Below, piece by piece: positions 49,512-57,932 of a DNA stretch of 64,000 bases. The notes under the pieces are model-generated. The model was not told the DNA's origin. It searched no databases and was given only the letters and a program-made list of their open reading frames with translations. How positions within the stretch are numbered: the first letter of the stretch is position 1; every line of letters starts with the position of its first letter. The translations under genes were made by a program, and so were the position numbers. Source of the stretch: Fuerstiella marisgermanici (GTDB lineage: Bacteria > Planctomycetota > Planctomycetia > Planctomycetales > Planctomycetaceae); contig NZ_CP017641.1 of NCBI RefSeq assembly GCF_001983935.1, positions 372,001 through 436,000 of the forward strand. The letters are read 5' to 3'.

Positions 49512-50615
49512 TTACTTTCCCAACGGTACGTAGGCGTAGCCGTCGGCTTGCAGGTTGACCAGCGACGTCAAAGCTGAAACGGCGACGTCAGCGAAGACGA
49601 CAACGTCATCCGGATTGCCGCCCTTCCCAATGAGTGACTGACCGCACACGAAGATTTCGACGCCCGCATCGTGCAGTTTATGCAGGCAATCAAGATTCGG
49701 GTTTCCTTTTGTCTCGTGGCGTTTGGTGTAGGCATCAACGTTCAAAACGGTCAGTGTTGCGTCACCGTGTAACACGATGGCGATGTCGACTTTCGCTGGC
49801 TTCTTACCTGCTCCCTGATAGATGTTCACAAAACGAGCCACCTTTTCGATAGCCGGATTCAATGCGTCCGGCTTACCGCTTTGAGTGAGATCAACAACGA
49901 TTCTGCTTCCGTTGCGCGGCTGTTGTGCTGCGTTTGGCAGCTTCACGACTTTGCCGTATTTCGCGATGGTGGGATTAATGTATTCCAAATTGCCGTTTGA
50001 AAACGCCGCATGGTTGTCCTTTTTGGCATGAACGACCTTAGGCAGCGTGTACGGTTTGTGAATTTCGTCCATGCCGTTCTTAAGAAAACGGCTGACCAGT
50101 TTGGCGTGTTCCTGAACCAGCATGATTACGAACGGATCGTCGGCTTCGTACGTTACCTCCATGCCTTGCTTCGTTTCTTTGTACGTCAACGTGTAGTCGT
50201 CGGCGTGCTTGATGAGTTCGACAAAGACTGGGTGGAAAGTCATTGGAGGCAGCGGCTCGTTTTCATGAACACGATTCTCCATGGCCGGCACGTGTTCTTT
50301 GAGCATCGCGACAATTTTGGTGTCGTCAGACTCGGTGGTTGCCTCGGCTCCTTTCGGAAGCATCTTCACGGTGCGAGTAATTTTTTCACGCGCTGCAAAC
50401 ATGGCGTGTAGTGTCGTCATGTCTTCACGCATTTCCGCTGACATGCCGCGTCCTCGCCCCCTGCCACGGCCAACCCCTTGACCTCGACCGGGCTGAGCCA
50501 CGGCGACATCGCCAATGGCGAGGGCGACCACTACGGCCGCCAATATGTGCGTGATGCGTCGGATTGTTTGGCTTGCTGGGCGGAATGAAAATGGTGATTT
50601 GCGAACTGTGTTCAT
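49512..50615 (-). CDS. Secreted protein with C-terminal DsrE-like domain
   Basis: A 367-residue exported protein. A signal region (ITHILAAVVVALAIGDVAVAQ) precedes a Gly-Arg repeat stretch (GRGQGVGRGRGRGRG, residues 59-73). Residues 80-215 form a helical domain of unknown type with a pattern of conserved-looking His and Glu. The last 130 residues form a DsrE/F-like fold: RIVVDLTQSGKPD, VDIAIVLHGDATL, CLHKLHDAGVEIFVCGQSLI and VVVFADVAVSALTSLVN. The segment with Cys in EIFVCGQSL is the usual DsrE active-site area. The start overlaps the CoA-disulfide reductase stop as ATGA, so translation is coupled. A link to sulfur carrying is inferred from the domain and neighbours. Confidence 0.8.
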   Translation of the reverse strand: MNTVRKSPFSFRPASQTIRRITHILAAVVVALAIGDVAVAQPGRGQGVGRGRGRGRGMSAEMREDMTTLHAMFAAREKITRTVKMLPKGAEATTESDDTKIVAMLKEHVPAMENRVHENEPLPPMTFHPVFVELIKHADDYTLTYKETKQGMEVTYEADDPFVIMLVQEHAKLVSRFLKNGMDEIHKPYTLPKVVHAKKDNHAAFSNGNLEYINPTIAKYGKVVKLPNAAQQPRNGSRIVVDLTQSGKPDALNPAIEKVARFVNIYQGAGKKPAKVDIAIVLHGDATLTVLNVDAYTKRHETKGNPNLDCLHKLHDAGVEIFVCGQSLIGKGGNPDDVVVFADVAVSALTSLVNLQADGYAYVPLGK

Positions 50616-52282
50616 GATTCTGTCTCCGTGGAATGATGCTGTTGCCATGTGCGATAACCGCCGCTGAGGTTGAATACGTCGAAGCCGTTGTGTTTCAATA
50701 ATCGAGTCGCCATGTATCCGCGCTGACCGACGAAGCAATACACCGCGATGCGTCGGTCCTGAGGAATTTCCGCCAATCTTTCGCGAAGTTCTTCCAGCGG
50801 AATGTTTGTCGCATCGCCGATGTTTCCGGCATCGAATTCACGTTGTGTGCGAACGTCCAGCACAAACCAGTCAGGCGATTTCGGTGGTGATTGCAATTCA
50901 GGGACGTGAGTTACCGGATGGTCGCCTCGCAACACGCCTGACGCGACGAAGCCCGCCATGTTGACCGGGTCTTTCGCCGAGCCGTATTGTGGTGCATAGC
51001 AGAGTTCGACTTCTTCCAGGTCGTAGACCGTCATTCCGCCGTGAATCGCCATCGCAATCACGTCGATGCGTTTGTCGACTCCGTTTTTGCCCACCGCCTG
51101 AGCGCCCCAGATGCGGCCGTCTTCGGGATTGAACAACAGCTTCAATGTCATTTGCGAAGCGCCGGGGTAGTAGCCAGCGTGGTCGTTGGGATGAATGTAG
51201 ATTTTGCGGTGGGAGCGATTCGCACGTCGAAGCAATTTTTCGCTGTGGCCGGTCATCGCAGCGGTTTTACCGAACACGCCCACGACAGCCGTCCCCTGAG
51301 TACCTCGGTACGTTGAGTTACGGCCGAAGATGTGGTCAGCTGCGATGCGGCCCTGCCGATTGGCTGGGCCCGCGAGTGGTATCTGCGTTGGCTCGCCGGT
51401 GAGGAAATCTTTGACTTGCGCTACGTCGCCAACGGCGTAGATGTGGGGATCGTTTGTCTGCATGTGATCATTGGTGATGATGCCACCCCGTGGACCACAC
51501 TCGATTCCGGCGTCGGCGGCCAGTTTGCTTTCCGGTCGCACGCCGATGCAAACAACCGCGAAACAGGCGGGAATAGAAGCGCCGGACTTGAGCCTCACCG
51601 TTAGGTTGCCGTCGGCGGTCGGATTGTCTTCAAACGCTTCCGCAGAATCATTCAGTCGTAACGAAACGCCCTGTTCACGCAGATGATCTTCCAACGGACG
51701 AACCATCTCCGCATCCCACGGCGGCAGGATTTGGTCGACCAGTTCGACAACTGTGACATTGAGTCCTCGCCGAACAAGGTTCTCCGCAACTTCGATTCCG
51801 ATGAATCCGGCGCCAACGATGACGGCTCGGCGGCTGCCGCCTGTCGTGACGAGCTCGTGCATGCGATCAGCGTCAGTGAGATCACGCAACTCCAGGACGT
51901 GCGGGCTGTCAATGCCCGGAATCGGAGGACGAAACGGCGATGCGCCAGTGGAAATTATTAGCCGGTCGTATGTCTCAGTGTAGCTTTCGCCTGTTTCCAG
52001 ATTCCTGACTGTGATGGACTGACTGTCCCGATTGATATAAGTGACTTCCTGTCGAGTCCGCACGTCGAGTCGATGTCGCTGACGAAGTTGAGCGGCTGGA
52101 GCCACGAGTAACTTGTCACGGATTTCGATTTCCCCGCCCACGTAATACGGGAGCCCACAATTCGCAAACGACGGTTCAGCCCCGCGTTCAATCAGAATGA
52201 TCTCCGCCTCTTCATTCAGTCGCCTCGCACGAGCGGCGGCAGAAGCTCCTCCGGCAACGGCGCCGACGATGACAATCTTCAT
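50612..52282 (-). CDS. CoA-disulfide reductase with C-terminal rhodanese
   Basis: A 556-residue flavoprotein fusion. Residues 1-450 form the CoA-disulfide/NADH-oxidase-like fold: MKIVIVGAVAGGASAAARAR (FAD), active-site SFANCGLPYYVGG with Cys42, AVIVGAGFIGIEVAENL (NADH), and IYAVGDVAQVKDFLTGEP. Residues 455-550 are rhodanese, with AVYCFVGQRGYMATRLL carrying the catalytic Cys516. Such CoADR-RHD proteins reduce CoA persulfides or polysulfides and release sulfide or pass sulfur on. The gene lies between SQR (53-base gap) and the DsrE-like gene (four-base overlap). It may reduce or recycle low-molecular-weight persulfides made by the oxidation pathway. Confidence 0.93.
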   Translation of the reverse strand: MKIVIVGAVAGGASAAARARRLNEEAEIILIERGAEPSFANCGLPYYVGGEIEIRDKLLVAPAAQLRQRHRLDVRTRQEVTYINRDSQSITVRNLETGESYTETYDRLIISTGASPFRPPIPGIDSPHVLELRDLTDADRMHELVTTGGSRRAVIVGAGFIGIEVAENLVRRGLNVTVVELVDQILPPWDAEMVRPLEDHLREQGVSLRLNDSAEAFEDNPTADGNLTVRLKSGASIPACFAVVCIGVRPESKLAADAGIECGPRGGIITNDHMQTNDPHIYAVGDVAQVKDFLTGEPTQIPLAGPANRQGRIAADHIFGRNSTYRGTQGTAVVGVFGKTAAMTGHSEKLLRRANRSHRKIYIHPNDHAGYYPGASQMTLKLLFNPEDGRIWGAQAVGKNGVDKRIDVIAMAIHGGMTVYDLEEVELCYAPQYGSAKDPVNMAGFVASGVLRGDHPVTHVPELQSPPKSPDWFVLDVRTQREFDAGNIGDATNIPLEELRERLAEIPQDRRIAVYCFVGQRGYMATRLLKHNGFDVFNLSGGYRTWQQHHSTETES

Positions 52283-52335: not shown

Positions 52336-53520
52336 CTATACGCGGCCTTTTAGCATTCCGTGCCAGTACATCGCCGGAAGGCCGAACTTCTTGGACATGA
52401 ACATACTGAACCGTTCCTTGTCCTGCTCGAATGGAAAGGTTTCGGCGGGCTGTCCGCTATAATCAAACTCCGCCAGCACCAGCGAATCGTAGCCTGTTAC
52501 CACCGGGCAGGAAGTGTAGCCGTCGTAGCTGGCTGTGGGTGACTGTTGATTCATCGAAGCAAGCAGATTGGCTACGAGTACCGGTGCTTGTTTTCGAATC
52601 GCTGCGCCGGTCTTCGAGGTCGGCAAGCTGGATGCGTCGCCAAGTCCATACACGTTTGGGAATCGAGTGTGCTGCAATGTATGTTTATCCACTTCGACCC
52701 ACCCGGTTTCTCCCGCCAACTCGCTTTGCGCGACAAAGTCTGGCGCGCTCATGGGCGGAGTCACATGGATCATGTCGTACTTGATGACTAATTCTTCATC
52801 AGTGTCCATGTGCCGATATACAGCCTCTTTCGAAGCCGGTCGAATTTCGACAAGGTTGTGTCGGTAACGAGGCTCGACCTTTTTTCGCTGGCACACCTGT
52901 TCAAGCACAATTCTGTAACGATCGACAGCAAATAGACGCGGCCCGGCAAGTGTAAAGATCACGTCGACATTGTCGCGAACGCCTGTGCGACGAAAGTGAT
53001 CTTCGGCAAGGTAGCAAATTTTCTGGGGAGCACCGCCGCACTTGACGGCTCCCGCAGGTTGCGTAAACAACGCCACGCCCTGCTTCAATTCACGAATGAA
53101 TTTCCACGTGCTTGCCACAGTGTCGATTGAGTAATTGCTGCATACACCGTCCTTCCCGACCGATTCCTTCAGCCCCTTTACTTGATCCCAATTGATTTGG
53201 ATTCCTGGGGCGACCACCAAATAATCATATCCGATTGTCTCGCCGTCGTCGGTCGTAATTGAGTTGGCCGCTGGTGAGAATGAGGCAACACGCTTTTTAA
53301 TCCAGTTGACTCCGTATGGAATCAGTTCCGCTTCGTTGCGAGCAGATTCGTCCGCCTCAAACATTCCACCGCCGACTAGCGTCCACAACGGCTGGTAGTA
53401 GTGTTTTTCTGAAGGTTCGATAACTGCTACGTCGAGCGACGCGTCAGCATTCTTTAGTCGAGCGGCTACTGTAATGCCAGCTGTGCCGCCGCCAACGATA
53501 ACGATTTGATGATGATTCAT
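52336..53520 (-). CDS. sqr: Sulfide:quinone oxidoreductase
   Basis: A 394-residue peripheral membrane flavoprotein that oxidises sulfide and passes electrons to quinone. The FAD motif is IVIVGGGTAGITVAARL. The redox Cys pair matches the human-type enzyme (SQOR): Cys161 in KCGGAPQKICYL and Cys338 in YTSCPVVTGYDSLVLAEFDY. A third Cys, at 127, lies near the expected flavin-linked position. YGLGDASSLPTSKTGAA gives the second FAD block. The group looks closer to the mitochondrial/type II SQR than to FCC flavoproteins. It sits between DUF1641 and CoADR, and its quinone link to the bd oxidase downstream is the key inference of the cluster. Confidence 0.93.
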   Translation of the reverse strand: MNHHQIVIVGGGTAGITVAARLKNADASLDVAVIEPSEKHYYQPLWTLVGGGMFEADESARNEAELIPYGVNWIKKRVASFSPAANSITTDDGETIGYDYLVVAPGIQINWDQVKGLKESVGKDGVCSNYSIDTVASTWKFIRELKQGVALFTQPAGAVKCGGAPQKICYLAEDHFRRTGVRDNVDVIFTLAGPRLFAVDRYRIVLEQVCQRKKVEPRYRHNLVEIRPASKEAVYRHMDTDEELVIKYDMIHVTPPMSAPDFVAQSELAGETGWVEVDKHTLQHTRFPNVYGLGDASSLPTSKTGAAIRKQAPVLVANLLASMNQQSPTASYDGYTSCPVVTGYDSLVLAEFDYSGQPAETFPFEQDKERFSMFMSKKFGLPAMYWHGMLKGRV

Positions 53521-53611: not shown

Positions 53612-54346
53612 TCACGAACTCACTTTGTGTCTATGTTGATGTGAAAGTTCGCCGCCAAAACATTTGGCAAACTGCAGGCCAAACGACAACGCTCGCTGTG
53701 TGTTCGGATCGCGCATCGCCTTGAGCATGCCGAACAAACCGACCCGTTGGGGAACCGGGTGTTCGCACGTACCGCGACTGCAGTTTGCCAAAGCTGCACC
53801 GGCGATGCCCACGGTTTCCACAGAATGCTCTGCCAGCACGTCGGACTTGACCAGAAACCCAATGCGATCCAGTTCTTCCCGCCGTATTTGGCCGCCTAGG
53901 TAAAGTATGGCGTGCAGCCCCTGGCGAATACTTTGTTCCAGATCAATGCCATCGTCTTTCAGTTGCGTTGCCCACTCATCGAAAACGTCGACTACTGTCG
54001 CGGTTAGCCCTGGCAGGTCGTCCAGTAGCGCACTGCCAGCTTCCAACTGTGGCAATCGAGATATCAGCTTTTCAATATTCCGGATGTTTTCTGGCTCAGT
54101 GAATCGGCCAAACAGCTTGAACAACGTCGTCGCTCGTTGTTCAAGATCGATCCCTTCCTGCGATGCCTGCCTGCAAATCGCGTCCAAAAAGTCGGTTGCC
54201 ATTGCGATCAGGTTTGGGATGTCACCGGCTATCTGCAACATCTGGTCAAGAGCTGCGGCTCGGTCGAGCAGTCGATGCAAAGCTTCGGTCGTTTGTGGAT
54301 CGTTCAAACGATCCGCAAGTGACGGTCTTTCAAGTGTAGTTTCCAT
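53612..54346 (-). CDS. DUF1641 protein
   Basis: A 244-residue helical protein of the DUF1641 family, often encoded beside SQR and related flavoproteins. It has several similar helical segments (LLDRAAALDQMLQIAGDIPNLIAMATDFLDAI and LEAGSALLDDLPGLTATVVDVFD). The C-terminal quarter contains GLFGMLKAMRDPNTQRALSFGLQFAKCFG, the most conserved part of the family. It lacks signal and membrane segments. The ATG at 54346 is preferred; an in-frame GTG lies two codons earlier. Its molecular role is unknown; position suggests it supports SQR. Confidence 0.85.
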   Translation of the reverse strand: METTLERPSLADRLNDPQTTEALHRLLDRAAALDQMLQIAGDIPNLIAMATDFLDAICRQASQEGIDLEQRATTLFKLFGRFTEPENIRNIEKLISRLPQLEAGSALLDDLPGLTATVVDVFDEWATQLKDDGIDLEQSIRQGLHAILYLGGQIRREELDRIGFLVKSDVLAEHSVETVGIAGAALANCSRGTCEHPVPQRVGLFGMLKAMRDPNTQRALSFGLQFAKCFGGELSHQHRHKVSS

Positions 54347-54442
54347 GGTCACCTCGATGATTGAAATTGCAAAGTCGGACTATCGCTGTGATGTTGTCTG
54401 AGACATGGCTTGCAGACCGTTCTTAGAGCTGGGCTTGGACTT

Positions 54443-54709
54443 TCAGTCATTTTCGTAGCGATTGTCGACCGGATCTTCTGGATGCTTTGCGGCGTCGCTA
54501 ACGTGATTTCGCTCATCAGCAAAGGGGGCGATTGTGGTTTTTGCATCGCCTGAATTGGGCTTGCGAGCGTCGGGCGATTTCATGTCGGAGTGCGGATCCA
54601 CCGCACAGCTTCCCGACATTCAAGTCTTCACGCCGAACTTTGGCAGCACCCACGCGTTGAGGACGAACCAAATGACGAGAACGCCCAACGGTAGAAGTAG
54701 CTCTTTCAT
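54443..54709 (-). CDS. Candidate small membrane selenoprotein (in-frame UGA as Sec)
   Basis: The ATG at 54709 has an AAAAGGA ribosome site and lies 14 bases after the dioxygenase stop. The first 29 codons give a membrane anchor (MKELLLPLGVLVIWFVLNA) ending LPKFGVKT. A TGA at 54620-54622 comes next. Read as selenocysteine, the frame continues U-M-S-G-S-C and 53 more residues to a TGA at 54443, 88 residues in all with a polar tail. A stem-loop fitting a bacterial SECIS begins right after the TGA. Without recoding the product would be a 29-residue peptide. Genes of this shape with Cys in place of U (GVxTCMSGxC) are what I recall from similar sulfur clusters. Sec decoding is inferred, not proven. 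Confidence 0.7.
54582..54619 (-). promoter_or_regulatory. Candidate bacterial SECIS stem-loop
   Basis: Immediately after the in-frame TGA the mRNA can fold into a lower 7-bp stem (ATGTCGG with CCGACAT), an internal loop (GAAGCT opposite T) and an upper 6-bp stem (GTGCGG with CCGCAC) closed by the 5-base loop TGGAT. The loop starts 20 bases after the TGA and has G at its second position, which matches the known bacterial SECIS pattern. All stem pairs are Watson-Crick. Confidence 0.7.
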
Positions 54710-54723
54710 AACTGTTCCTTTTC

Positions 54724-56169
54724 TCATGAGCATTGACCGACTTCCGTATCACAGTTAGCGGTTGACGTTGAGTCAGCGACAGGCAAGCCAGTCGTTGACC
54801 ACGCACCAAAGCCGCCAGACAGGTTGATGACTTCACGACCCGAAGCTTGAATGATGCTAGCCGCAATTGCTGACCGCCCACCGGTTTGGCACTGAGCGAC
54901 AATGGGTTTGTCGGTCGCCAGGTTCGCCAAATTGTCGGGCAAGCGGCCTAGAAACTGGTGCTCGGCGGCGAGAATTCGCCCTTTGTTCCATTCATCGTTG
55001 GAACGGACATCAATCAGATCGACGTCGCCCGATTCGATCCGCTGTTTCAGCTCTTGCGGAGTTGCGGATTGGTAGCTTTCTGTCGCGAGTCCCGCCGCGC
55101 GGACTTCTGCCACATCGAAGTAGCCACGCACGTCATCAAGGCCGATTTTCCGTAGGACGCGAGTCGCTTCGGCAAGCTGGCCTGGATCCGCAATCAGATA
55201 TGTGGGGATGGAATAATCGACAACCCAGCCCGCCCATCCAGCAAGCAGCGATGTGGGAATGTTAATGGTCCCGGCAACATGCCCGTCTGCGAATTGCGAG
55301 GCAGGCGAAATGTCGATGACAGTCGCTTCATCCAAAGTCTTCGTTACAGATTCTACGGGCTGAAGTTCTGGAAGACCCTTGTCGCCGATGATATCGGGCC
55401 CTTCCTTGTTGACTCGCTTCATGACTGCAAAGTACTTCGGAGCTTCCGGCTGATCCGATAGGATGTACTTCACGAATTCGTCTTCGTCCTTAAACTGCAG
55501 CGCCGGGTTAAACAGTTTTTCGTAGCCGACCGTGGACGAAGGGATCGCTCCGAGTCCCTTGCCGCACGCGCTACCTGCGCCATGAGCGGGCCAGACCTGC
55601 AGATAGTCCGGAAGCTTCTTGAAGCGTTCAGCAGAGTGAAACAGATCGCGGGCCCCTGGTTCGGCTGTGTTCGCCAGCCCGGCCGCTTCTTCCAGCAGGT
55701 CCGGACGGCCAATCGAACCGACGAACACGAAGTCGCCAGTGAAGATTCCCATCGGCTTGTCAGCGCCGCCGCCCTGGTCAGTCAGCATAAACGAAATACT
55801 TTCAGGCGTGTGACCGGGTGTGTGCAGAACATCGAATTTGATGTTTCCGGCCATGAAGGAATCGCCATCCTTCACCAGTTGATGATCGTATTGATCGGCG
55901 AACAGATACTTCCAGTCCGCCGGACCTTCATCAGAAACATAAAGCTTCGCGCCCACTCGGTCAGCCAGTTCACGCGCACCGGACACATAATCAGCGTGAA
56001 TGTGAGTCTCCGCGACTGCGATCAGCTTGAGACCTTCGCGGTCGGCCATTTCCAGGTATTGGTTGATGTCGCGACCGGGATCGACAACGACGGCCACTTT
56101 GGCTCGCTGGCAACCGACCATGTAAGAAGCATGAGCCAGAGCTTTGTCGTAGAAGTATTTGAGCAGCAT
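54724..56169 (-). CDS. Persulfide dioxygenase-rhodanese (ETHE1/CstB-like)
   Basis: A 481-residue cytoplasmic fusion. Residues 1-255 are a metallo-beta-lactamase-fold persulfide dioxygenase: VAVVVDPGRDINQYLE, THIHADYVSGARELA (iron-binding His/Asp), LHTPGHTPESISFML and GDFVFVGSIGRPDLLE. Two rhodanese domains follow. The first (about 270-365) lacks an obvious Cys; the second (about 375-465) has catalytic Cys in VAQCQTGGRSAIAAS. This matches ETHE1/CstB-like enzymes that oxidise glutathione- or low-molecular-weight persulfides to sulfite. A Cys-containing tail (ANCDTEVGQCS) ends the protein. It fits downstream of SQR in the pathway, with TauE possibly exporting sulfite. Confidence 0.92.
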   Translation of the reverse strand: MLLKYFYDKALAHASYMVGCQRAKVAVVVDPGRDINQYLEMADREGLKLIAVAETHIHADYVSGARELADRVGAKLYVSDEGPADWKYLFADQYDHQLVKDGDSFMAGNIKFDVLHTPGHTPESISFMLTDQGGGADKPMGIFTGDFVFVGSIGRPDLLEEAAGLANTAEPGARDLFHSAERFKKLPDYLQVWPAHGAGSACGKGLGAIPSSTVGYEKLFNPALQFKDEDEFVKYILSDQPEAPKYFAVMKRVNKEGPDIIGDKGLPELQPVESVTKTLDEATVIDISPASQFADGHVAGTINIPTSLLAGWAGWVVDYSIPTYLIADPGQLAEATRVLRKIGLDDVRGYFDVAEVRAAGLATESYQSATPQELKQRIESGDVDLIDVRSNDEWNKGRILAAEHQFLGRLPDNLANLATDKPIVAQCQTGGRSAIAASIIQASGREVINLSGGFGAWSTTGLPVADSTSTANCDTEVGQCS

Positions 56170-56187: not shown

Positions 56188-57012
56188 TTATAGAATGACC
56201 GTTTTTGCGATTACGAATACAGCGACCAGTACAACCGCCGTTGCGAATACTTTTTGCAACGTTGGTCCCTTGAGTTTTCCGGCGACCAGGCCACCGAGCC
56301 AAATGCCAATGAATCCGCCGACAAGAAACTGCAGGGTTGTTTCGAGCGACAATTCGCGTCCCGACACCACGTACGACGTGACGCCACTGATACTGATGAG
56401 GAAGATCACGAACAGCGAGGTCCCTACGGCTCGATGAATTGCCATTCCGCTGAACAACACGAGTGCAGGCACGATGACAAAACCCCCGCCGACTCCGAAC
56501 ATTCCTGACAGCATTCCCGTCAGCAAACCAACCAACATCAACAGTTGGGCACACTTTGACGTCATCCGAAGCGTTCCGTCTTCGTCACGCTGGCACGCCG
56601 AGCGATCAGCTGCAGCCTGCCCTTCAATCAAACACACGCCGGTCACCAACTGTGGGTTGCGAGTTTTAGCCCACATCCTCCATGCCACGACCAGCATTAA
56701 ACACCCGAACATCACCAACAAGACTGCTTCCGGAAACAGTGTCGAGAGATAAGATCCAATCGGTGCGCCGATCATCCCGGCAACGGCAAACAGTAAACCA
56801 GTCCGCAGTTCAACCTCGCCTCGCCACAGACGAGGGACGACTCCTGCGAAGGCGGTCCCGCCAACCGATGCGAGTGAAATGCCGACTGCTTCGCGAGGCG
56901 CGATGGAAAGGCCGTAGACCAGAAATGGCACAGCAAAGACACCGCCACCGCCACCAGTGAGGCCAAGTGCGAAACCGACAGCAGATCCAAATAGAACGGC
57001 TAGACCGAACAT
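56188..57012 (-). CDS. TauE/SafE-family anion exporter
   Basis: A 274-residue inner-membrane protein with about eight helices. The two repeated halves start GSAVGFALGLTGGGGGVFAVPFLVYGL and GLLTGMLSGMFGVGGGFVIVPALVLFSG, the DUF81/TauE pattern. Family members carry sulfite, sulfoacetate or other organosulfur anions. A soluble loop of about 30 residues (ACQRDEDGTLRMTSK area) lies between the halves. It overlaps the rhodanese gene by 13 bases upstream and precedes the persulfide dioxygenase by 18 bases. Sulfite export from the dioxygenase reaction is the natural inference; transport of sulfide or thiosulfate is possible too. Confidence 0.9.
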   Translation of the reverse strand: MFGLAVLFGSAVGFALGLTGGGGGVFAVPFLVYGLSIAPREAVGISLASVGGTAFAGVVPRLWRGEVELRTGLLFAVAGMIGAPIGSYLSTLFPEAVLLVMFGCLMLVVAWRMWAKTRNPQLVTGVCLIEGQAAADRSACQRDEDGTLRMTSKCAQLLMLVGLLTGMLSGMFGVGGGFVIVPALVLFSGMAIHRAVGTSLFVIFLISISGVTSYVVSGRELSLETTLQFLVGGFIGIWLGGLVAGKLKGPTLQKVFATAVVLVAVFVIAKTVIL

Positions 57013-57545
57013 GATCCTTTCCCGACCTTATTCCAGGGCATTCTGGCAATCATCATTCCCATCGCGCAGGTGTCTGTGATACCGGCGAACATCAGTCCGG
57101 CCCCAACGAACGCGGGGATTCCGGCGAAGTAGACGTTGCCGGTGACGAGCGCCGTGGCGGCTCCCGCAAAGACGAGGAACCCGGCGGCGATTCGCACCTG
57201 ACGTTCCAGTGACATCGCTTTCTTTCCACGCACGACTGGCAGACCAGCGTCGACCCATGCCTGCGTTCCGCCCTCCACATTGACGACATTGGCGTAACCC
57301 GCATCGATCAGCTTTTGACACGCCTTCCCCGCCCGGTTGCCGGATTTGCAAATGACGTACAGTGGTTCGTCGGCCGAGCCGTTTCGTTCCTTCATCAGCG
57401 AATGTGGATCCAACGCATCCAATGGCACATTGCGAGCGTTCTCAGCCCGCACTTCTCGGAACTCCACCGGCGTCCGCACGTCGACCAGGTCGACACGACC
57501 TTGTTCGGCAAGTTGTGCCGGATGAATGGTCTTGACTCCTGACAT
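57000..57545 (-). CDS. Rhodanese-DUF2892 membrane protein (YgaP-like)
   Basis: A 181-residue protein. Residues 8-105 are rhodanese with VDVRTPVEFREV and the active Cys in YVICKSGNRAGKACQKL; the KSGNR loop matches sulfurtransferases. Residues 115-181 form a DUF2892-type two-helix membrane part (QVRIAAGFLVFAGAATALV and FVGAGLMFAGITDTCAMGMMIARMPWN), as in E. coli YgaP, with Cys near the C-terminus (KVGKGSCSV). It would hold a sulfurtransferase at the membrane. A palindromic operator-like site lies directly upstream of its ribosome site. It is the first structural gene of the cluster. Confidence 0.92.
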   Translation of the reverse strand: MSGVKTIHPAQLAEQGRVDLVDVRTPVEFREVRAENARNVPLDALDPHSLMKERNGSADEPLYVICKSGNRAGKACQKLIDAGYANVVNVEGGTQAWVDAGLPVVRGKKAMSLERQVRIAAGFLVFAGAATALVTGNVYFAGIPAFVGAGLMFAGITDTCAMGMMIARMPWNKVGKGSCSV

Positions 57546-57599: not shown

Positions 57600-57932
57600 C
57601 TACTTACGTCGTTTTCCAGACAAAAAGCGATTTTCCACACATTCCATGATGTTGGCCAGATGCGGTTCGGCCACCTGGTAGTACACGCGGCGACCTTCCC
57701 GTTCGCTGGTGAAGAAACCGCAACGCTGCATTAGCCGAAGGTGCTCAGAAGCGACGTTGTCCGGCACACCACAATCTTCTGCCAGTTCTCCCACGGTATA
57801 TCGGCCGTGCAGTAACAACTGCACCATCCTTAACCGTACAGGATGAGCAAGGGTCTTCAGGCATTCGGCGGCCTGAGCGAACGCTTGCGGCGTACCGGCT
57901 GGTTTCGTTTTCGACTTGGAGTTTGTCACCAC
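57600..57932 (-). CDS. ArsR-family repressor, probably sulfur-responsive
   Basis: A 110-residue winged-helix regulator. ECLKTLAHPVRLRMVQLLLHGRYTVGELAEDCGVPDNVASEHLRLMQRCGFFTSEREGRRVYYQV covers the helix-turn-helix and wing, matching ArsR/BigR/SqrR-like proteins. Cys residues lie at 24, 54, 71 and 98. C24 and C98, in the first and last helices, could form the sensing pair as in BigR/SqrR, which detect persulfide. The start is a GTG at 57932 (a second GTG follows at 57929) behind a strong AGGAGG. A palindromic site lies just upstream and a near copy lies downstream before the rhodanese gene, indicating autoregulation and cluster control. Confidence 0.88.
   Translation of the reverse strand: MVTNSKSKTKPAGTPQAFAQAAECLKTLAHPVRLRMVQLLLHGRYTVGELAEDCGVPDNVASEHLRLMQRCGFFTSEREGRRVYYQVAEPHLANIMECVENRFLSGKRRK

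Follow-up and report, generated by a model that had tools for sequence, protein, structure and literature searches.

Selenoproteins K and S of animals are small single-pass membrane proteins with selenocysteine (Sec) in a mostly disordered tail. They use the eukaryotic Sec insertion system, and the protein described here resembles them by description only. With the bacterial bSECIS selenoproteins it shares an in-frame UGA, a hairpin with an early G in the loop, SelB and tRNA-Sec, and homologs carrying Cys. A 2026 catalogue lists 119 families and subfamilies of bacterial selenoproteins (PMC13188914). The YeeE/YedE selenoprotein and the selenoprotein-type sulfide:quinone reductase (SQR) described there are likewise selenoproteins of membrane or sulfur oxidation proteins, but they have other domains and the Sec motifs GUxSG and HxxU. 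No motif among the Table 1 entries compared, some of which list none, corresponds to T-U-x4-C on a single helix.

The gene lies in a planctomycete stretch of 64,000 nucleotides, the whole of the DNA analyzed (the window). Its product very likely belongs to an undescribed family of bacterial selenoproteins with one membrane helix followed by T-U-x4-C, as judged from sequence comparison. In NCBIfam 20.0 (June 2026), 0 families match the window protein, and scans of 12 and 36 members against the same collection gave isolated weak matches only (best E 0.0029, in one member). Scans against Pfam and PHROGs likewise produced isolated weak matches and no fitting model for the family, and the Rfam scan yielded one chance-level match, on the other strand. 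A literature text search for the family motif strings returned nothing relevant among the matches listed, and a description of the family was not found in the passages compared from PMC12013277, PMC5029168, PMC4807772, PMC1794560, and PMC8318568. We could not find the family in the literature compared, a set that leaves aside the S9 Table candidates of the Porphyra planctomycete paper (PMC4807772).

A further resemblance concerns DUF6132 (PF19628), also a small membrane protein. At one locus (L246), a Cys form of the family adjoins a DUF6132-like membrane protein, whose CQSGSC may be compared with the family's CMSGxC, and a DsbD/thioredoxin gene; C-x-S-G-x-C is the common motif. The neighbor scores just under the PF19628 cut-off (22.1 versus 23.2 bits), and among 36 family members scanned none matched PF19628 at E 1. 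We take this resemblance as a lead only.

Gene layout and the residue at the UGA position

The gene occupies positions 54443-54709 of the minus strand and encodes 88 residues plus a stop, with Sec as residue 30 and a conserved Cys as residue 35. The frame runs from an ATG at 54709-54707 through 29 codons to a TGA at 54622-54620, followed by 58 sense codons and a terminal TGA at 54445-54443, in the arrangement given by the initial annotation. The good ribosome-binding site claimed there is also present, as AAAAGGA at 54716-54722, 6 nt upstream of the ATG. Hydropathy and an AlphaFold2 model agree with the earlier prediction of a single transmembrane helix and place it at residues 5-24 (54638-54697); in the model, residues 1-20 have a pLDDT of about 92 and the tail is of low confidence. 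The Sec position is preceded by W-V-L-P-K-F-G-V-K-T and followed by M-S-G-S-C, in which the Cys at +5 (U-x4-C) is encoded at 54605-54607.

Searched against its relatives, the read-through product gave matches in 40 of 58 at E 1. A large share of these are at chance level; the strong ones contain a single internal TGA or none. A family profile was built from 12 rows; it matched 108 of the 397 genomes of the class at the threshold of E 1e-3 or better, and 37 of 392 genomes in a phylum sample at E 1e-4. The UGA column could be read in 116 members including the window, of which 83 have UGA, 31 Cys, one TGG (G064), and one TAT (G305). With UGA or Cys in 114 of 116 readable homologs, the observation goes beyond chance. 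This count leaves out the two weakest profile rows (G362 and G209) and two members unreadable at the column, G250 with an extra in-frame TAG and G051:C2 with a weak match; it includes G012, a genome with tRNA-Sec that stands outside the class table of genomes.

The codon at 54620-54622 thus aligns to UGA in 82 other members and to Cys in 31. The family core reads [DE]-...-L-...-W-[FIV]-[VA]-L-[NQ]-x-W-[VIL]-L-P-[RK]-x-G-[VI]-x-T-[U/C]-[ML]-[SG]-G-x-C and is followed by a hydrophilic tail. The Cys at +5 is retained in 79 of the 83 UGA members and 29 of the 31 Cys members of this profile-found set, and both TGC and TGT codons are used. The initial annotation had pointed to Cys forms (GVxTCMSGxC) from similar clusters; homologs with G[VI]xTCMSGxC do align through the TGA, and many other homologs keep the TGA. 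A sequencing error at this codon was rejected, since scores of genomes share UGA at the same position.

A UGA member and a Cys member occur together in the genomes G138, G114, G194, G203, and G388 (L111/L151, L121, L123/L190, L128/L163, and L181/L188, respectively). In G321, which has selB and tRNA-Sec, the member at L143 carries Cys at the Sec site, and a TGA lies six codons before it. G064, a genome rated 100% complete and without selB or tRNA-Sec, has two copies that look degenerate (L161 and L192); the codon at the Sec site is TGG in one and TGA in the other.

Selenium machinery and spread of the family

The host genome (8.92 Mb, one contig) contains selB (336 bits), tRNA-Sec (79.7), selA (506), and selD (263), all above curated cut-offs, so that each of selA, selB, selC, and selD, the genes proposed earlier as a check on the recoding, is present. 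The open frame that holds the host selD has 772 codons, compared with 311 positions in the selD model, and is perhaps a fusion.

Of the 397 class genomes, 203 have a selB-model match at E 1e-50 or better, and in 195 the curated cut-off is exceeded. Elongation factors reach E 1e-47 to 3e-58 with this model in the pattern-scan genomes described below, and machinery was accordingly called convincing at selB E 1e-70 or better, or with tRNA-Sec. Class genomes with a UGA form have selB at E 1e-50 in 69 of 78 cases, and 60 of these 69 also have tRNA-Sec under stricter filters; eight of the nine selB-positive genomes without tRNA-Sec have selB at E 4e-96 or better. Five of the nine UGA genomes outside the 203 selB-positive ones have tRNA-Sec. 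Taken together, 73 of 78 UGA-form genomes have convincing selB or tRNA-Sec, compared with 5 of 26 genomes that have Cys forms only (Fisher p 6e-13, kinship ignored). With tRNA-Sec alone the figures are 65 of 78 versus 5 of 26 (Fisher p 5e-9, kinship ignored); nine of the 13 UGA genomes without it come from the stricter-filter run. The five Cys-only genomes have both selB and tRNA-Sec, and the other 21 have neither. Counts throughout are of sequences, not of independent events.

Convincing selB or tRNA-Sec was not found in 5 of the 78 UGA genomes, namely G015 (95% complete), G322 (75%), G147 (92%), G094, and G064 (100%), and the copies in G094 and G064 look degenerate. G015 is counted here because its sole selB-model match, at E 3e-55, falls in the elongation-factor range. 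The genome whose gene has the added in-frame TAG (G250) is likewise without selB or tRNA-Sec. Within a single genus (g46), two genomes (G054 and G079) have UGA, selB, tRNA-Sec, and the hairpin; two others, G153 and G192 (77% and 64% complete), have Cys and a weaker best stem of 5 bp further downstream, and in them no selB at E 1e-50 and no tRNA-Sec were found.

In a scan of 84,980 species genomes, a degenerate DNA pattern accepting TGA, TGC, or TGT matched at least 118 stretches. Seven of the 118 listed matches, which have no helix, were left out by eye (L198, L218, L220, L227, L244, L252, and L281), and the remaining 111 comprise 103 UGA and 8 Cys forms. Eleven of the 111 repeat earlier members, and at least 95 UGA and at least 5 Cys forms are new beyond the profile-found set. 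Since W, L, P, G, T, U/C, and the Cys at +5 are prescribed by the pattern, conservation of these residues in the pattern-scan members is not independent evidence. Among the matches listed, UGA forms come from records whose titles mention Deltaproteobacteria, Acidobacteria, Planctomycetes, Verrucomicrobia, Gemmatimonadetes, Obscuribacterales/Cyanobacteria, and Spirochaetes, as well as Chloroflexi, Armatimonadetes, Zixibacteria, KSB1, LCP-89, and Myxococcota. UGA forms thus occur under at least about a dozen phylum names, taken from record titles that mostly belong to metagenome bins. A tblastn search against plasmids found no family member.

The association with the selenium machinery recurs in 50 of the pattern-scan genomes, where selB is above the cut-off in 36 of the 45 UGA genomes and in none of the 5 Cys genomes. 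Eight of the nine UGA genomes without selB over the cut-off have tRNA-Sec, and one of the five Cys genomes has a weak tRNA-Sec match (51.7 bits, cut-off 47), giving selB or tRNA-Sec in 44 of 45 UGA genomes versus 1 of 5 Cys genomes. In the remaining UGA genome (L229), neither convincing selB nor tRNA-Sec was found.

The hairpin after the UGA

Directly after the UGA, the window RNA is predicted to form a bSECIS-type hairpin (54582-54619, minus strand), which folds at -20.4 kcal/mol for 46 nt (z -4.2; none of 200 dinucleotide-shuffled sequences folds equally well). It consists of an 8-bp outer stem (54612-54619/54582-54589), based on folding of the window sequence, a 6-bp apical stem (54601-54606/54590-54595), and the loop UGGAU (54596-54600) with G at position two, 19 nt from the UGA. 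The apical stem, the loop, and its G are as first annotated, and the outer stem, given there as 7 bp, is one pair longer. The bSECIS criteria given in PMC13188914 are a loop of 3-9 nt, an upper stem of 4-16 bp, a G at loop position one or two, a spacing of 16-37 nt, and a minimum free energy (MFE) of -7.5 kcal/mol or lower; the window hairpin lies within all of them, the MFE being computed for the window only.

Across the family, where the tests cover the apical stem, the hairpin was scored by mechanically seeking the best stem that follows the codon, and scores of 9 or more were taken as high. In the comparison of UGA and Cys forms suggested in the initial annotation, a high score is found in 75 of 83 UGA forms versus 5 of 31 Cys forms; those that also have G at loop position one or two and a spacing of 16-37 number 74 of 83 versus 2 of 31. 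Synonymous recodings of the UGA forms (n=16,600) reach a high score in 16.6% of cases, and in 6.8% with G and spacing; for the Cys forms (n=6,200) the values are 10.6% and 3.5%. The rarity of such scores among recodings indicates that the stem is no by-product of the protein sequence. The pattern matches listed score at least 9 in 90 of 103 cases with UGA and in 1 of 8 with Cys. Eight of the 83 UGA forms score under 9, and the loop of G079 has no G in its first two positions.

The hairpin occurs in several registers in the family, with GUC, GGUC, AGUU, GUU, and UGGAU as common loops. In the three commonest registers (34, 17, and 20 of the 83 sequences), 97%, 95%, and 91% of apical-stem cells are paired; sliding the 3' side by 1-3 leaves no more than 64% paired, although picking the register from each sequence's best stem favors the unslid value. 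Cells changed on both sides of the stem number 23, 10, and 21 in these registers and at most 4 after sliding. At L082 (G098:C121, codon at 1523), in a genome that has neither selB nor tRNA-Sec, a Cys form retains its SECIS-type hairpin intact and seems to have changed from Sec to Cys recently.

Genomic context, alternatives, and possible role

In the window, the gene is flanked on the same minus strand by sulfur-related genes, whose enzyme names we infer from their Pfam domains. Upstream, ending 14 nt before the ATG, is a gene for a metallo-beta-lactamase fold with rhodanese (54724-56169; persulfide dioxygenase-like), followed by genes for a TauE/SafE transporter (56188-57012), a rhodanese with a YgaP-like membrane domain (57000-57545), and an ArsR-type regulator (57600-57932). 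Downstream, a DUF1641 gene (53612-54352) starts after 90 nt, and next to it are genes for an SQR-like FAD oxidoreductase (52336-53520; Pyr_redox_2), a CoA-disulfide-reductase-like enzyme with a rhodanese domain (50612-52282), and a DsrE/DsrF-like protein (49512-50738). The last, a recurrent neighbor in the neighbor clustering, is long, with an N-terminal extension, and its cluster recurs near the family at 33 loci. The domains agree with the original placement of the gene between persulfide dioxygenase and DUF1641/SQR genes.

Family neighbors include persulfide dioxygenase-like, SQR-like, rhodanese, DsrE, TauE, thioredoxin, DUF302, OsmC, and DsbD genes. With chosen queries, a same-strand sulfur/thiol neighbor is present at 58 of 115 Planctomycetota loci and at 19 of the 111 pattern-scan loci listed, and RND pump parts are found at 20 and 15, respectively; these counts come from short fragments in which ORF picking can miss genes, with queries biased to planctomycetes. 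Outside Planctomycetota, adjoining genes encode thioredoxin (phmmer and inspection by eye), DUF302, OsmC, rhodanese, C_GCAxxG_C_C, and DsbD proteins, and many are unrelated. What the initial annotation did not anticipate is that the family occurs in many phyla; outside Planctomycetota it is not tied to sulfide-oxidation clusters, and that context is weak.

Averaged over 224 sequences, 11 of them repeats, the net charge is -0.62 ahead of the helix and +1 across the seven residues that precede Sec. Positive charge marks the cytoplasmic side of a membrane helix (the positive-inside rule), suggesting that Sec lies on the cytoplasmic side.

Were the UGA a plain stop, the gene would encode a 29-residue membrane peptide, and the frame beyond, beginning at the ATG after the TGA, would be separate or decayed. 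An ATG does directly follow the TGA in 62 of the 83 UGA forms; the remaining ones, however, have CTG, CTA, GGG, GGA, GGC, ACG, or ATT there. The 31 Cys members are moreover fused through the site, the Cys at +5 persists after the UGA in 79 of 83, the stem covaries, and the UGA form is associated with the Sec machinery, all of which makes a plain stop extremely unlikely. A selenium-sensing leader, in which read-through at the UGA and hairpin controls downstream genes and the protein itself is unimportant, would suit a very short product often found among co-directional genes. It fits poorly with a protein core conserved across phyla, with the Cys form kept in 21 genomes without selB or tRNA-Sec, and with a gene order that varies between loci, and we regard it as very improbable. 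The TGG of one member (G064) could hint at non-specific read-through, or at decoding of the UGA as some other amino acid, for example tryptophan, but Cys in 31 members, 21 of 26 Cys-only genomes without selB and tRNA-Sec, and the UGA at which the window gene itself terminates leave this a negligible chance. Recoding of the UGA as Sec, the original reading, is almost certainly correct, with strong computational support from the Sec machinery, the Cys homologs, and the hairpin contrast.

For the role of the selenoprotein, the alternatives are less distant. It may, for example, act as a redox switch that responds to peroxide or metals, or assist efflux pumps as a small partner, as the RND pump parts near 15 of 111 listed pattern-scan loci and 20 of 115 Planctomycetota loci and the very varied neighbors outside Planctomycetota would allow. 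The sulfur/thiol neighbor on the same strand at 58 of 115 Planctomycetota loci speaks against such roles, which we consider a sizeable possibility short of an even chance. The neighboring genes suggest instead a thiol or sulfane-sulfur redox role at the membrane.

In the mechanism we propose, ribosomes would translate 29 codons, producing one membrane helix that ends in W-V-L-P-K-F-G-V-K-T. The hairpin right after the UGA would recruit SelB with Sec-tRNA, leading to insertion of selenocysteine, and translation would continue through M-S-G-S-C into a hydrophilic, probably disordered tail. The Sec/Cys pair at the membrane surface, probably the cytoplasmic one, would then, more probably than not, serve selenenylsulfide/selenol redox chemistry or a sulfane-sulfur relay for thiol enzymes, both membrane and soluble ones. 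That the widespread family acts, in about a dozen phyla, as a general selenol relay that links membrane thiol systems with soluble ones by transfer of electrons or sulfane sulfur is quite possible. A more specific function in the window operon, passing sulfane sulfur or electrons between the SQR-like and persulfide dioxygenase-like enzymes and the rhodaneses, is a tentative and rather unlikely proposal.

If this reading is true, the bacterial selenoproteome would gain a family that gene calling, by stopping at the UGA, would shrink to a peptide of about 29 residues. The family could help explain why some of these lineages retain the selenium machinery. It would also offer a minimal system for asking why a selenol at the membrane surface is preferred to a thiol, for which natural Sec and Cys versions already exist in related genomes.
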